55,890 nt of DNA from a virus: positions 1 through 55,890 of the IMG/VR virus record IMGVR_UViG_3300009507_000022; one strand, given 5' to 3'. The notes beneath the pieces were generated by a model. It did no database searches. It saw only the letters and a list, made by a program, of their open reading frames with translations, and was not told the origin of the DNA. This document shows positions 5,448-47,849 of this stretch, one piece after another (position 1 is the first letter of the stretch; each line of letters opens with the position of its first letter). The position numbers were made by a program, and so were the translations under genes.

Positions 5448-8447
5448 TTATCCTCTACTCTGACTTAACTCAATTTTTAGTTGATTTACTTCATCAGAAA
5501 GTTCTTGTATCGCTTTAATCATCGGAGATATTAGTTCAGTATATCGTAATCCCATCATAGACCCTGTTGTAATTCCTGCAAAATCTAAAGTGGTTTTATC
5601 AAACTGACCCAATGATGAACTCAACTCTTGAGCAATTAACCCATAGTGGGTTCTCGTTTTACCAACCCAATTATAACTCACAGGTCGTAGTTCGTTTACA
5701 AACGATAATCCTAAATCTGAAGATGTAATATTTTCCTTTTGAGTTACATCGGATGTTTGTATTGTACCATTTGTTGCGTAAACATCATCCCATCGTGCAT
5801 CCGGAACTCCTGTACTAACACTTGCTATTTGACCAAGGTCATATGTGTTATCTCTACCGGGAATAAAGTTTCCGTGATGTGCCGTTCCATACTTTGTTGT
5901 GGATAATGATGATTGGTCAAATTGTAATCCTTTTACAAACAATGCCTCGGAAGAAGCTGCTTTTACAAGTCTTATTTCACCAAGCCTCATCCAATTTACC
6001 GTACCGCCACCGCTGGCACTTTGGGCATACCAACTTATTTTAATTCTAAACTGATTTCTGATTGTGAGTGTAGTTCCGGATACGGATACTAACGCATCAA
6101 GGATTGGTACGTTTATAGATAACCACTCGGCAGCGTTTAGTGATGTTATTTCAAATCTTTTCCAAACAGCACTTGTGGTAGGGTGTTTAATTTCAACTCG
6201 TACAGTTGGGCCAAATCCACCAAACGAAGAGCCAAATTTTGCGGCCGTTTGTAAAACCAACCCATTTAATGATTCAAGCCCAATCAAACTTGATGGTAGG
6301 GTAATCACTTCACTTAAAATTGAAAAATCGGATGTTTCTCCTATACCCGAGTTTCCTGCTGAAAATATTACGTTATCAACGGTAGCGTCTGTGGTGTATT
6401 CTTCTGGATATCCCGTTGGCATCCCAATAGCATTCAACCCAATATTACCTTTTATATCAGACCACTTTTTAAAAGTAGGTGGTTCTGTATTTGATACATC
6501 ACTACCATCAACTGCCTTTGTGTACTTTGATGCGTATAATATAGTTCCGTGAAATGTAGATGTAGCAGTTGAACCAGAGTCACACGTCCAAGTTAAGTTA
6601 CCATAAGATATGGTACTACCAATAGTACCAACATTTACTTTTGACCCACCGTACGCCCAAGATGATGTAATGTCGGCGGATGAGGTTACCCACGATTCCA
6701 ATATGTACTCATTACTACTATCTTTTGCAATAGTACCTACAACTTGTACATCATCAAAACGACCCACTTGTGCAATAATGTTACCATCTATCTTTGCATT
6801 CGATGCGGTGATGTGTCCGTTTGATTTTAAAATCAATAAATCATTTGATGAATTGATTTGCGTTTCACTAACTTCAAATCCACCAATAACTGCTTCACCA
6901 TCTTTTGGATTTAAATGAAAGAATGATGAACTAATTTCTATATTACCACCGGACCCGCTGATAAATTGTGTATCATCAGTACCTATAAAAAATTCATCCG
7001 TAATAACTTTTAATTGACCACCATCATGAGTTGTGAAATAAAAACTGGACGACCCACCTTCAGATACCATTTCCATACCAACTCCAGGATATTGGTCATC
7101 TCCTAATTGTAGATTACCACTACCACTCCAAATAAGGAATCCACCGGCACCTTTTCCAAGTGAAGCTGATGTGAATCCATTATATCCTATTGACTTTAGA
7201 TAACCACTTGAGTGACCTGCCATCTCAATACCAGTTCCAATAGCGTTACCAATATGGAATGACCCACTAATCAAAGATTGGTCACCGCCAATGTATACGT
7301 TACCACCTTCAAATACAATATCTTCGACCACAAGTTCAGTTGATGATACTTCACCTACTGAATTTAAAAATTGTAATTTTAAGCTTTTTGGGTCTTTTAG
7401 GTGTTCCGTTGGGATTGGAACTTTATATGATAACGATGGTGTATTTTCTACTTTAGTATTACCAATCAAATCATAATCAGCATTGGTAAGACCTTGTGAC
7501 TTAATCAATGTGTTTATAGAATCAATTCTCCCCACAATAGGTTTTACATTTGTAAGTGTAAAATTTGCAAATGCAATTTGGTTTTGTGTAGAGGTGTCGG
7601 AGCCAGTTGAGTAGTATTCTATATTTACTTCAAGAGTACCATCGGAGTATTCGTATGTATGTATTGAACCATCGCTACGATTATCACTTGCTGTAATTGG
7701 TGTGTTAATCCTCATTATTGTTGAGGACGCCACTTCAGTTATACTGGCTGTAAATTGTGTGGGTTGTGGTTGACCACCACCAAGTCGTGGGAACAATGTT
7801 GGAATGTTTACTGCATAAACAGTACCACCAACCATTTCTGCATTAAAGTTTGATAATGCGTCGTATTCTAAAGTAGTTGTGTCACCAAACGTAGACTTTT
7901 TATAATATACCTCACTATTTGCAATTGTTTTAGTGAGTTTACTATTGGATACCTTTTTATTAGTAAAGGTCTCAATACTTGAAGATACGTTTACTCGTGG
8001 TAATAACGTAGAATTAAATACAATATTTGATACAGACTTTCTACTCTTATTTACATCAATCTTACGAGACCATCTAACAAGATTACCATCAGGCAGAGTA
8101 CCTAATAAAATAATTTGAGCAGTTCCGTTTGGAGTATTATAATTACGATTTTCAGGAAGGTCATATATCCAAACTGAAATTAATCTACCTTTGTCTTCTT
8201 CCTTGTATTTTGGAATTTCCCAGTAGATTGGCCTCTCATTTGAATCAAGAACCTCAATTTCAATTTTTGTATTTGGTAAAAACGCACCATCAACGGGACG
8301 TATCTTAAACGAGTTTTTACCCTCACCAAGATACTTTGGAAAATCAACAACACCAAAAAATTCAGCAGATTCAGGAGAGTTGTCCTCTATGCCAACCTTT
8401 TGTGATTTAAGATATATCTTTGATTTCTTCTTTAATTCCAGTGCCAT
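5448..8447 (-). CDS. Tail fibre or spike with C-terminal S74 intramolecular chaperone
   Basis: A 999-aa protein. The C-terminal 110 residues match the Peptidase_S74 chaperone: SDVTQKENI (Ser and Lys of the self-cleaving dyad), LSFVNELRPVSYNW, HYGLIAQEL, and a final coiled coil AIQELSDEVNQLKIEL that holds the trimer together before release. The rest is Ser/Thr/Gly-rich beta structure, including a segment of short hydrophobic repeats around residues 380-560 (SGSFHIGNAIGTG, GAGGFLIWSGSGNLQLGDDQ) of the kind seen in beta-helical fibres. It follows the nuclease gene by 20 nt, with a TATTTATA-type motif between. Host receptor binding is the expected role; the exact position on the virion cannot be read from sequence. 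Confidence 0.88.
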   Translation of the reverse strand: MALELKKKSKIYLKSQKVGIEDNSPESAEFFGVVDFPKYLGEGKNSFKIRPVDGAFLPNTKIEIEVLDSNERPIYWEIPKYKEEDKGRLISVWIYDLPENRNYNTPNGTAQIILLGTLPDGNLVRWSRKIDVNKSRKSVSNIVFNSTLLPRVNVSSSIETFTNKKVSNSKLTKTIANSEVYYKKSTFGDTTTLEYDALSNFNAEMVGGTVYAVNIPTLFPRLGGGQPQPTQFTASITEVASSTIMRINTPITASDNRSDGSIHTYEYSDGTLEVNIEYYSTGSDTSTQNQIAFANFTLTNVKPIVGRIDSINTLIKSQGLTNADYDLIGNTKVENTPSLSYKVPIPTEHLKDPKSLKLQFLNSVGEVSSTELVVEDIVFEGGNVYIGGDQSLISGSFHIGNAIGTGIEMAGHSSGYLKSIGYNGFTSASLGKGAGGFLIWSGSGNLQLGDDQYPGVGMEMVSEGGSSSFYFTTHDGGQLKVITDEFFIGTDDTQFISGSGGNIEISSSFFHLNPKDGEAVIGGFEVSETQINSSNDLLILKSNGHITASNAKIDGNIIAQVGRFDDVQVVGTIAKDSSNEYILESWVTSSADITSSWAYGGSKVNVGTIGSTISYGNLTWTCDSGSTATSTFHGTILYASKYTKAVDGSDVSNTEPPTFKKWSDIKGNIGLNAIGMPTGYPEEYTTDATVDNVIFSAGNSGIGETSDFSILSEVITLPSSLIGLESLNGLVLQTAAKFGSSFGGFGPTVRVEIKHPTTSAVWKRFEITSLNAAEWLSINVPILDALVSVSGTTLTIRNQFRIKISWYAQSASGGGTVNWMRLGEIRLVKAASSEALFVKGLQFDQSSLSTTKYGTAHHGNFIPGRDNTYDLGQIASVSTGVPDARWDDVYATNGTIQTSDVTQKENITSSDLGLSFVNELRPVSYNWVGKTRTHYGLIAQELSSSLGQFDKTTLDFAGITTGSMMGLRYTELISPMIKAIQELSDEVNQLKIELSQSRG

Positions 8448-40394: not shown

Positions 40395-41657
40395 TTAGAA
40401 AGGATTAGAAATATCAGCAGTTTCAACATTGAACAAGTCCTCATTTTCAGGGGTCTTACCCAAGAACTTCTGAACGTATTGTTTCATATAAACTCGTTCT
40501 GAATCAGCACCACCACTTTGGTCGAACATTGGGTAGATGGTAATCTCAGCAGCTTCCTCAAGGGAGAACCCATCGTAAAGTAGAGAACCAATCTCGACAG
40601 CGGTACGAGTCGAAAGTGAGTTAGACAACTTTGGTGACTCGGACAACAACTCACCACGAGTCATAGAAGTAATCTCAGCAACCGACTGAAGGAGGTTCAT
40701 CTCAACCGAAGGATACATCATTGAGAGGAGTTCTGACTCTTCATATTGTGACAACGTATCCATCTCAATCACAACGAATCGGTCAAGGATAGCCCGGTCA
40801 AGAGCTCGTGTGGCTGTGTACTCATTACCGATGTTAGCAGAGGCGATGAAGGACACACCCTCGGCCACCTTGACAACAGGAGCGTCAGCAGCCTCATCCA
40901 AACGTAGGTATCGTTGACCCAAGTCAAGAACCGACATCAAGATGTTGTGAGCCTCTGGATGAGCACGAGTCAACTCATCAAGAATCACCACGGTGTTTGG
41001 AGTTTGAATCGCCTTGACAAAAGGTGAGGGGTTGAAGACCGTACCCTTCTTGGTATCAAATTGAGTATTACCAATCAGAGTGGTTCGTGGGTCTTGAGTA
41101 GCACCCAAGTTGATGATGAAAGTGTTGTAACCCTCAATCGAATTAGCAGCAGCCTTGGCCGCCATAGTCTTACCACATCCGGCGGGACCAGTCATCATAA
41201 TGTTCTTACCACGAATGATGTTACGAATAAGATACTTCCACTTGAGGGAGTTCATAAACAACATCTTTGGTTTCAAACCATTAGCATCCTCGTGGATGAA
41301 TTTCAAGACATCATCGGTCATTTCAATAGAGGCCGGAGCCGGAGTATTAGGTTCATATTTCAAAGCGACAAGACCGCCATTCGGTGCGGTGAAGTTACCA
41401 ACTGGTTCAGGATTAGTCTCAACCTTCTCAACTGGCACACGAGTGTGACCAATCTCACCATTCTTTAAAGTACCAACGACACGAACCTTCCAAGCCCACT
41501 TGGCCGGATTGTTAGCAGCCGCTCGGGCACGTTTGTAAAGGGAAGACCCATTCTCATTAAGTTCAGGGATGTTAAAGGTAACACCTTCTGAATCTTGGAA
41601 CATTAGTAGATTGTCAACCTCAACAATCTTACCGAAAACTGATTTTTGTGCTTTCAT
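40395..41657 (-). CDS. AAA+ ATPase, MoxR/CobS-like
   Basis: A 420-aa protein. Walker A GPAGCGKT at 157-164, Walker B VVILDELTRAHPE near 223-235, sensor-like ASANIGNEYTATRALDRAI with LDRFVVIEMD near 285, and a helical lid. This arrangement is typical of MoxR/CobS ATPases, which remodel or insert metal into a partner protein. The N-terminal 150 residues form a phage-type extension (KAQKSVFGKIVEVDNLLMF). Its downstream neighbour on the map, read just before it, is a VWA protein, the usual CobT-like partner. T4-like cyanophages carry a similar cobS gene, but a cobalamin role has not been shown there. Confidence 0.88.
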   Translation of the reverse strand: MKAQKSVFGKIVEVDNLLMFQDSEGVTFNIPELNENGSSLYKRARAAANNPAKWAWKVRVVGTLKNGEIGHTRVPVEKVETNPEPVGNFTAPNGGLVALKYEPNTPAPASIEMTDDVLKFIHEDANGLKPKMLFMNSLKWKYLIRNIIRGKNIMMTGPAGCGKTMAAKAAANSIEGYNTFIINLGATQDPRTTLIGNTQFDTKKGTVFNPSPFVKAIQTPNTVVILDELTRAHPEAHNILMSVLDLGQRYLRLDEAADAPVVKVAEGVSFIASANIGNEYTATRALDRAILDRFVVIEMDTLSQYEESELLSMMYPSVEMNLLQSVAEITSMTRGELLSESPKLSNSLSTRTAVEIGSLLYDGFSLEEAAEITIYPMFDQSGGADSERVYMKQYVQKFLGKTPENEDLFNVETADISNPF

Positions 41658-44817: not shown

Positions 44818-44827
44818 TGATACCTTG

Positions 44828-44900
44828 AGCGAAAGACCGGGTTCGAACCGGCGACCCTAACCTTGGCAAGGTTATGCTCTACCAACTGAGCTACTTTCGC
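44828..44900 (-). tRNA. tRNA-Gly (anticodon GCC)
   Basis: A full cloverleaf on the minus strand: acceptor GCGAAAG/CTTTCGC, D-stem GCTC/GAGC, anticodon loop TTGCCAA, T-loop TTCGAAC, discriminator T. CCA is not encoded. It is the last RNA of an array with three non-standard RNA units. Confidence 0.97.
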
Positions 44901-44907
44901 TTATAGA

Positions 44908-44978
44908 GCGGAGAGGTGGCTCTGCCCCACCATCTTTGTACTGGACGTACAACGAGTTTCTCTTAACTCCTCCCCCGC
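44908..44978 (-). ncRNA. tRNA-like cloverleaf unit C (non-canonical)
   Basis: A 71-nt minus-strand unit folding exactly as a tRNA: acceptor GCGGGGG/TCTCCGC (7 bp, two G-U), 2-nt joint, D-stem GAGT/ACTC, 1 nt, anticodon-like stem TTGTA/TACAA with loop CGTCCAG, 4-nt variable region, T-stem GGTGG/CCACC with loop GGCAGAG, then T at the discriminator position. It lacks G18-G19, U33 and the TTC of the T-loop. All four stems show compensatory changes relative to unit A. The glycine identity bases (GCGG/CCGC, T73 and C35-C36 of a TCC triplet) are kept. It is read from the promoter at 45156. Not a standard tRNA; a non-ribosomal glycyl-RNA or a decoy is a hypothesis. Confidence 0.75.
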
Positions 44979-44984
44979 ATTGTT

Positions 44985-45070
44985 GGGTAGTAATAACCGG
45001 TAGCCCATACTTTAGGCAAGGCCTTTAGCAATTGATGTAGCGGTTTTATCCACACCTTTAATTACTACCC
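44985..45070 (-). ncRNA. Structured RNA unit B between the cloverleaf units
   Basis: An 86-nt minus-strand segment closed by a perfect 10-bp stem GGGTAGTAAT/ATTACTACCC. Inside, GGTGTGG/CTACATC forms a 7-bp hairpin (two G-U) whose loop carries AACCG, able to pair with CGGTT next to the closing stem, giving a pseudoknot; AGGC/GCCT can form a small third hairpin. It is separated from unit A by 4 nt and from unit C by 6 nt. No T-arm can be drawn, so it is not a tRNA. Function unknown. Confidence 0.65.
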
Positions 45071-45074
45071 TTGA

Positions 45075-45145
45075 GCGGAAGGTTGGAACTGCCCCAACAC
45101 CTTTTATCTGGATGATAAACGACTTTCTTTTAAGTCTTCTTCCGC
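45075..45145 (-). ncRNA. tRNA-like cloverleaf unit A (non-canonical)
   Basis: A 71-nt minus-strand unit: acceptor GCGGAAG/CTTCCGC, D-stem GACT/AGTC, anticodon-like stem TTTAT/ATAAA with loop CATCCAG, variable AGGT, T-stem GTTGG/CCAAC with loop GGCAGTT, then T. Same length, same stems and nearly the same loops as unit C. The first base is about 5 nt from the predicted transcription start, so the RNA may begin almost exactly at its acceptor stem. Confidence 0.75.
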
Positions 45146-45155
45146 GTTTGTTATA

Positions 45156-45186
45156 CAAATATACAAAATTAATTTTAAATATCAAA
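45156..45186 (-). promoter_or_regulatory. Full-match Bacteroidota-type promoter for the RNA array
   Basis: The minus strand reads TTTG (45186-45183), a 19-nt spacer ending aattttg, then TATATTTG (45163-45156). It drives units A, B, C, tRNA-Gly and probably the two genes beyond. Confidence 0.85.
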
Positions 45187-47047: not shown

Positions 47048-47054
47048 TTTTAGA

Positions 47055-47172
47055 CCCAATCACCTCACTATCTGCAGGTGCAAGAGAATGTCGAGCTAAT
47101 TGCATATACATTCTAATTGAGTCATCGGTAGTTGATTGGGGTTCTACTACCAAAACCCATAGGCTAGACTCA
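47055..47172 (-). ncRNA. Candidate structured RNA between tRNA-Thr and tRNA-Ser
   Basis: In this tRNA-flanked gap five complementary pairs occur (plus-strand coordinates): cccaatca 47055-47062 with tgattggg 47133-47140; cacct 47061 with aggtg 47076; agaatgt 47085-47091 with acattct 47108-47114; tgagtc 47118-47123 with gactca 47167-47172; ggtagt 47127-47132 with actacc 47146-47151. The 8-bp pair uses the loop of the last hairpin, a pseudoknot. A single copy only, so no covariation support. Confidence 0.45.
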
Positions 47173-47201
47173 GCGTCTTTCCTACCTTGACAGGGCAGTT
47201 G

Positions 47202-47759: not shown

Positions 47760-47849
47760 AACTGGTTGTTTTAGGACAACCATAACCTGCCTACTTTAGC
47801 TCCACCCGATTTTTTACAAGAATGGGAAACTTGAGGTACACGCCTGGGG

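Follow-up and report, generated by a model that had tools for sequence, protein, structure and literature searches.

A predicted pseudoknot-capable RNA with a conserved fold at several genomic locations in uncultured phages

Organization of the locus and predicted fold of unit B

The window, by which we mean the whole stretch of viral DNA analyzed here (55,890 nucleotides), is predicted to come from a myovirus-like phage because of its SbcC-like, primase, and baseplate-wedge matches. On the minus strand, a predicted promoter is followed by two tRNA-like cloverleaves, units A and C, with the 86-nt unit B between them, and by tRNA-Gly (Table 1). TTTG/TATATTTG with 19-nt spacing fits the Bacteroidota promoter form, which suggests a Bacteroidota host, and in most of the other arrays where a promoter of this kind is present, TATATT(T)G is located 10–13 nt ahead of the first unit. 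The initial annotation of this DNA had described an 86-nt pseudoknot-capable RNA between two tRNA-like units, closed by a perfect 10-bp helix, and its coordinates and letters proved correct, with 10/10 Watson-Crick pairs in the closing stem P1. It had also placed unit B 6 nt from C and 4 nt from A, and the promoter about 5 nt before A; the spacing to C stands, whereas that to A is 3 nt and TATATTTG lies 10 nt before A. Its grouping of A, B, C, and tRNA-Gly into one array agrees with the promoter position and the strand, which fit one transcription unit.

Table 1. Coordinates of unit B, its predicted elements, and its neighbors in the window
Feature	Position	Strand	Remark
-33-type promoter element, TTTG	45183-45186	-	19-nt spacing to TATATTTG
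-7-type promoter element, TATATTTG	45156-45163	-	10 nt before unit A
Unit A, tRNA-like cloverleaf, anticodon loop CAUCCAG, U73	45074-45145	-	Exact tRNA dimensions
Unit B (86 nt, pseudoknot-capable), bounded by P1	44985-45070	-	From the sequence
P1 5' strand, GGGUAGUAAU	45061-45070	-	10 Watson-Crick pairs with 44985-44994
Junction UAAA (URAA across the unit-B family)	45057-45060	-	Conserved in alignment A1
P2 5' strand, GGUGUGG	45050-45056	-	7 pairs including 2 G.U
P2 loop, AUAAAACCG	45041-45049	-	AUAARRCCG conserved in the family
Pseudoknot 5' strand, AACCG (last five P2-loop letters)	45041-45045	-	
P2 3' strand, CUACAUC	45034-45040	-	Pairs with 45050-45056
Variable P3 region, often a small hairpin	45005-45033	-	0-59 nt in relatives
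Pseudoknot 3' strand, CGGUU, adjoining P1	44995-44999	-	CGG conserved, UU not
P1 3' strand, AUUACUACCC	44985-44994	-	Pairs with 45061-45070
Unit C, tRNA-like cloverleaf, anticodon loop CGUCCAG, U73	44907-44978	-	Exact tRNA dimensions
tRNA-Gly (GCC)	44827-44900	-	ARAGORN; Rfam RF00005, 69.6 bits

Without the pseudoknot, the folding energy of unit B is calculated as −26.9 kcal/mol, compared with a mean of −19.7 kcal/mol for dinucleotide shuffles (z = −2.4, with 3 of 200 shuffles equally good), which is a modest difference when taken alone. What speaks decisively for a real structure is the conservation and covariation in the relatives, not the folding energy.

Unit B does not appear to be a tRNA, with neither an ARAGORN nor an RF00005 match and a predicted fold lacking a T-arm. 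It gave no Rfam 15 match at the gathering threshold or at E ≤ 10, its relatives gave none at E ≤ 5, and units A and C were likewise without ARAGORN and Rfam matches. The view that unit B has no T-arm and matches no known RNA family, for which the initial annotation had proposed an Rfam search, is thus upheld by ARAGORN, Rfam, and the fold. The abiF model (RF03085) found nothing over its cut-off in 12 records, and its sole sub-threshold match in the window lies at 40716–40728. Tandem repeats beside a toxin gene, as in type III antitoxins, were not found for unit B, which is present in single copy, and the four neighboring open reading frames scanned (an aminotransferase, a PhyH, a thioesterase, and one without a match) include no recognized toxin gene. 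Our literature search found no description of this RNA, and unit B appears to represent an RNA family new to Rfam and of a known general kind. A protein-coding role was rejected, with the frame open in some members and closed in others, and is also opposed by the variable length and the placement between tRNAs.

Conservation and covariation in the unit-B family

A search pattern based on the A and C loops retrieved 32 viral loci, several of which hold B-like sequences between the units, and further relatives were found with patterns from B itself and then with the covariance model R1 (20 sequences), which scores unit B of the window at 76.3 bits, an in-sample value because the window sequence was used to build it. 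The relatives amount to about 50 virus records and 32 distinct sequences. Unit B is single-copy in almost all matching records, including phage contigs of 167–187 kb (L019 has two copies), and a repeated processing signal was therefore rejected as its identity; it lies on the sense strand at every place inspected. Between the window and L005, unit B is identical at 86/86 positions and 300 nt of the open reading frame after the array are 84.9% identical; the identity of B could come partly from recent exchange. No unit B was found by blastn in cultured phages. Among these, Microcystis phage Mel-JY01 is the nearest uvsX relative; the gap in front of its recombinase gene is only short, and its weak opposite-strand match to B (E 0.03) was read as chance. 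One narrow pattern gave four matches in 84,980 bacterial species genomes, all within coding sequence and apparently due to chance, and the pattern matches in L039–L046, L048, and L228 were also set aside as chance.

The predicted helices P1 and P2 are conserved in the unit-B family. In alignment A1, compensatory changes occur at 8 of the 10 P1 pairs and 96.5% of the cells are paired. Over the whole structure, 80 cells are changed on both sides against a shuffled mean of 25.2 (0/500 shuffles reach 80, and slid controls give 8–27), with the cells counting sequences, not events, among relatives that are all metagenomic contigs and include near-duplicates. In the hand alignment of 29 sequences, failures at the eight inner P1 pairs are confined to 3 cells, and the four loop-proximal P2 pairs, each represented by several pair types, are intact in all cells but one. 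This covariation was not imposed by the searches, because P1 and P2 letters outside the flanking consensus were absent from the search patterns; the conservation of the URAA junction in A1 was partly fixed by them. The P1 complementarity that the initial annotation had expected homologues to conserve was found, with many compensatory changes. On this sequence evidence, we regard 44985–45070 as a genuine small RNA gene, and about 50 sequences from uncultured phages preserve its fold.

The five-pair pseudoknot AACCG/CGGUU, also proposed initially, was retained in part. Three of its pairs, CCG/CGG, are universal and possible in 29/29 tabulated sequences, whereas the full pairing is present in only six of them (the window, L020, L026, L003, L004, and L032), with one A-U replaced by G-C in L020, and the fourth position is A.A, A.C, or A.G in 23/29. 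CCG and CCGG were fixed in the search patterns for B, and the members found via A/C patterns alone keep CCG/CGG as well, with one change in L025, as do those found by the model. Covariation cannot prove these pairs because their letters never vary, and almost none is seen in the pseudoknot helix among the 29 sequences. The conserved complementarity is consistent with unit B adopting an H-type pseudoknot in solution, as we infer.

The A/C family comprises 50 distinct units, with 99.9% of the cells paired and two or more Watson-Crick types at 14 of the 21 pairs, and has members in the window, L002–L033, and L061–L089, the window copies being those missed by ARAGORN and Rfam. Its D-, anticodon-, and T-loops are altered (UAARAGAA, CNWCCAG, and GGCRGNN) and lack the conserved U33, D-loop GG, and T-loop UUC. 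The bacterial glycine determinants U73, G1-C72, C2-G71, G3-C70, C35, and C36 (PMC9976931) are all present in the A/C units, with the constancy of C35/C36 and of GGC partly imposed by the search patterns, which included these letters but not U73 and the acceptor pairs. By eye, no pairing of B with the A or C loops was seen. Two tRNA-like units have near-normal T-loops, one in L004 (minus strand from 9744, UGCGAUU) and one in L019 (5445–5519, UUCAAAU), and are possible intermediates between tRNA-Gly and A/C. In the close relative L034, a methyltransferase-like gene (~6970–7700) lies at the place that the array has in the window neighborhood.

Genomic locations of unit B

Unit B is not a fixed member of an A-B-C array, as had first been supposed: L009 and L015 are among the loci in which A and C are present and B is absent, and B in turn is found where they are missing, as between tRNA-Thr and tRNA-Ala and ahead of uvsX or a DnaB-like gene. 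In the locations described here, all gene names except RecA and DnaB_C were assigned by our own reading of the sequences and do not come from database matches. In arrays, B lies between tRNA-like units, between tRNA-Thr and a tRNA-like unit, or, in L008, between tRNA-Thr and tRNA-Ala, a few nucleotides from the flanking tRNAs, so that no adjacent gene is left for it to regulate. Another location is between a gp32-like gene and uvsX, the product of which has a RecA Pfam match, shortly ahead of a GGAG-type ribosome site; among the 80 closest uvsX loci, the model places B immediately ahead of the gene in 10, and further cases are L051, L053, L054, L056, and seven more. In six records (L047, L049, L050, L052, L055, and L057), B is found directly behind the stop codon of an RNase H/exonuclease-like gene, ahead of the promoter for a DnaB-like helicase gene, and non-coding stretches harbor it in L130 and L223/L230. 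The B family is found on the sense strand at the places inspected, nearly always in single copy, and at several unrelated locations.

The gp32-uvsX gap of relatives is empty or contains a plain GC-rich hairpin, B, one of two other P1-closed RNAs, or tRNA-Ala. On a basal stem TAGT/ACTA that is kept, L174 carries a hairpin, L180 the B core, and L190 tRNA-Ala (UGC), an exchange which indicates that B fills the kinds of place that tRNA genes fill. Unit B seems to behave like portable RNA cargo, interchangeable in the uvsX gap. The 5'-UTR riboswitches have a constant place upstream of the genes they control, which B does not, since it also lies between tRNAs and after a gene before a promoter. One further P1-closed structured RNA occupies the gap in L133–L136, L138, L143, and L210, and another in L139, L158, L185, and L211; manA RNA (RF01745) is found near uvsX in L133 and L139.

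Possible roles of unit B

We tentatively favor, with a probability of roughly 0.45, that unit B encodes a separate phage RNA, which is released from a tRNA-type transcript and acts in trans by protein binding. The promoter just before A would drive A, B, C, and tRNA-Gly as one transcript, from which B would be freed when tRNA-processing enzymes trim the flanking units, and the closing stem P1 would keep the released RNA stable. The functional domain would consist of the URAA junction, P2 with the loop AUAARRCCG, the ACCGG adjoining P1, and the H-type pseudoknot, the core of which would bind a protein of the host or the phage, perhaps as a decoy. Co-transcription, release, and trans action are read from the arrangement of the sequence elements, and the protein partner is a guess. 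The tRNA-like gap placement, together with the arrays in which no gene is adjacent, speaks for action in trans and against a leader element without proving it, and the recurrence upstream of uvsX could point the other way, toward a cis role.

A cis-acting mRNA element would terminate, stabilize, or regulate the gp32, uvsX, or helicase mRNA and, in the tRNA arrays, insulate or protect the precursor. This reading, which we consider rather unlikely, draws on the position of B between the gp32-like and uvsX genes near a GGAG-type ribosome site and on that right behind the RNase H/exonuclease-like stop, where a promoter and then the DnaB-like gene come next; in relatives, the gp32-uvsX gap is occupied by plain hairpins, and U-rich runs follow some uvsX-gap P1 stems (L188 and L170). 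However, the array copies, a few nucleotides from tRNAs, have no gene to control, B is absent from most of the 80 uvsX loci, and any hairpin would suffice for stability, leaving the conserved core unexplained.

The trans-acting reading might extend to a counter-defense cassette, in which B would decoy a host RNA-binding defense protein, such as a ribonuclease toxin, while A and C would be glycine-identity mimics that keep the bacterial GlyRS determinants and have lost the ribosome-facing loops; we give this a low probability. It is still less probable that B is a self-cleaving or otherwise catalytic RNA cutting polycistronic phage transcripts: a compact pseudoknot with conserved unpaired letters, sited between units or genes, would suit such a role, but neither unit B nor its relatives match Rfam families at permissive thresholds, the known self-cleaving ribozyme models included, and A/C tandem pairs exist without B, which is therefore unnecessary for separating them. 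Least probable is a neutral intergenic stem-loop without a function of its own, for although many different hairpins and structured RNAs occupy the same gaps, the core of B is conserved across 32 distinct sequences and several genome contexts, P1 is kept through many compensatory changes, and B is identical in the window and L005.

Among known systems, RNAs C and D of T4 (species 1 and 2) are stable small non-tRNA RNAs that lie in the T4 tRNA cluster and have no known function. Unit B is likewise a small non-tRNA RNA sitting inside a phage tRNA cluster, and differs in that it also occurs outside such clusters. The autoregulatory pseudoknot of T4 gene 32 lies in the gene 32 leader; B is beside a single-stranded DNA-binding protein gene in some loci, but after the gp32-like gene, and it is also present in unrelated places. 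The manA and wcaG motifs (RF01745 and RF01761) are structured RNAs, present in marine metagenomes and in T4-like phages, that were found by comparison and proposed to be 5'-UTR switches (PMC2864571). B is likewise a structured phage RNA found by comparison in metagenomes, but it matches neither model and also lies between tRNAs. Phage pseudo-ToxI, a small RNA pseudoknot that mimics a toxin-neutralizing RNA and escapes abortive infection, provides a precedent for a decoy role (PMC5449768). Like ToxI and pseudo-ToxI, B is predicted to be a small RNA pseudoknot; unlike ToxI, it is single-copy, with a 10-bp closing stem, no tandem repeat, and no Rfam match, and its scanned neighbors hold no recognized toxin gene.

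The unit-B family adds an uncatalogued, strongly covarying RNA to phages known from metagenomes alone, and suggests that the tRNA arrays and replication-gene gaps of these phages carry swappable structured RNAs. If the trans action is true, the old question of the non-tRNA RNAs in phage tRNA clusters becomes testable.

Other spacers between tRNAs also have candidate RNAs. Between tRNA-Tyr and tRNA-Pro of the window (47760–47846), a spacer that contains CCAGGCGUGUAC and GGUUUCC...GGUGGAGCU resembles a further structured RNA and recurs in similar form in L005, L008, and L072. The spacer between tRNA-Ser and tRNA-Thr (47048–47200), with GAGUCUAGCC and GGGUUUUGGUAGU...AACCC, is another candidate, with similar spacers in L005, L008, L022, and L072. 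A candidate RNA GAGAGGUAGUGAAGCUAC...AACCCCGAAAGACCCGAAACCUCUC lies between tRNA-Leu and tRNA-Arg in L014, L024, and L031, and between tRNAs in L013 and L019.
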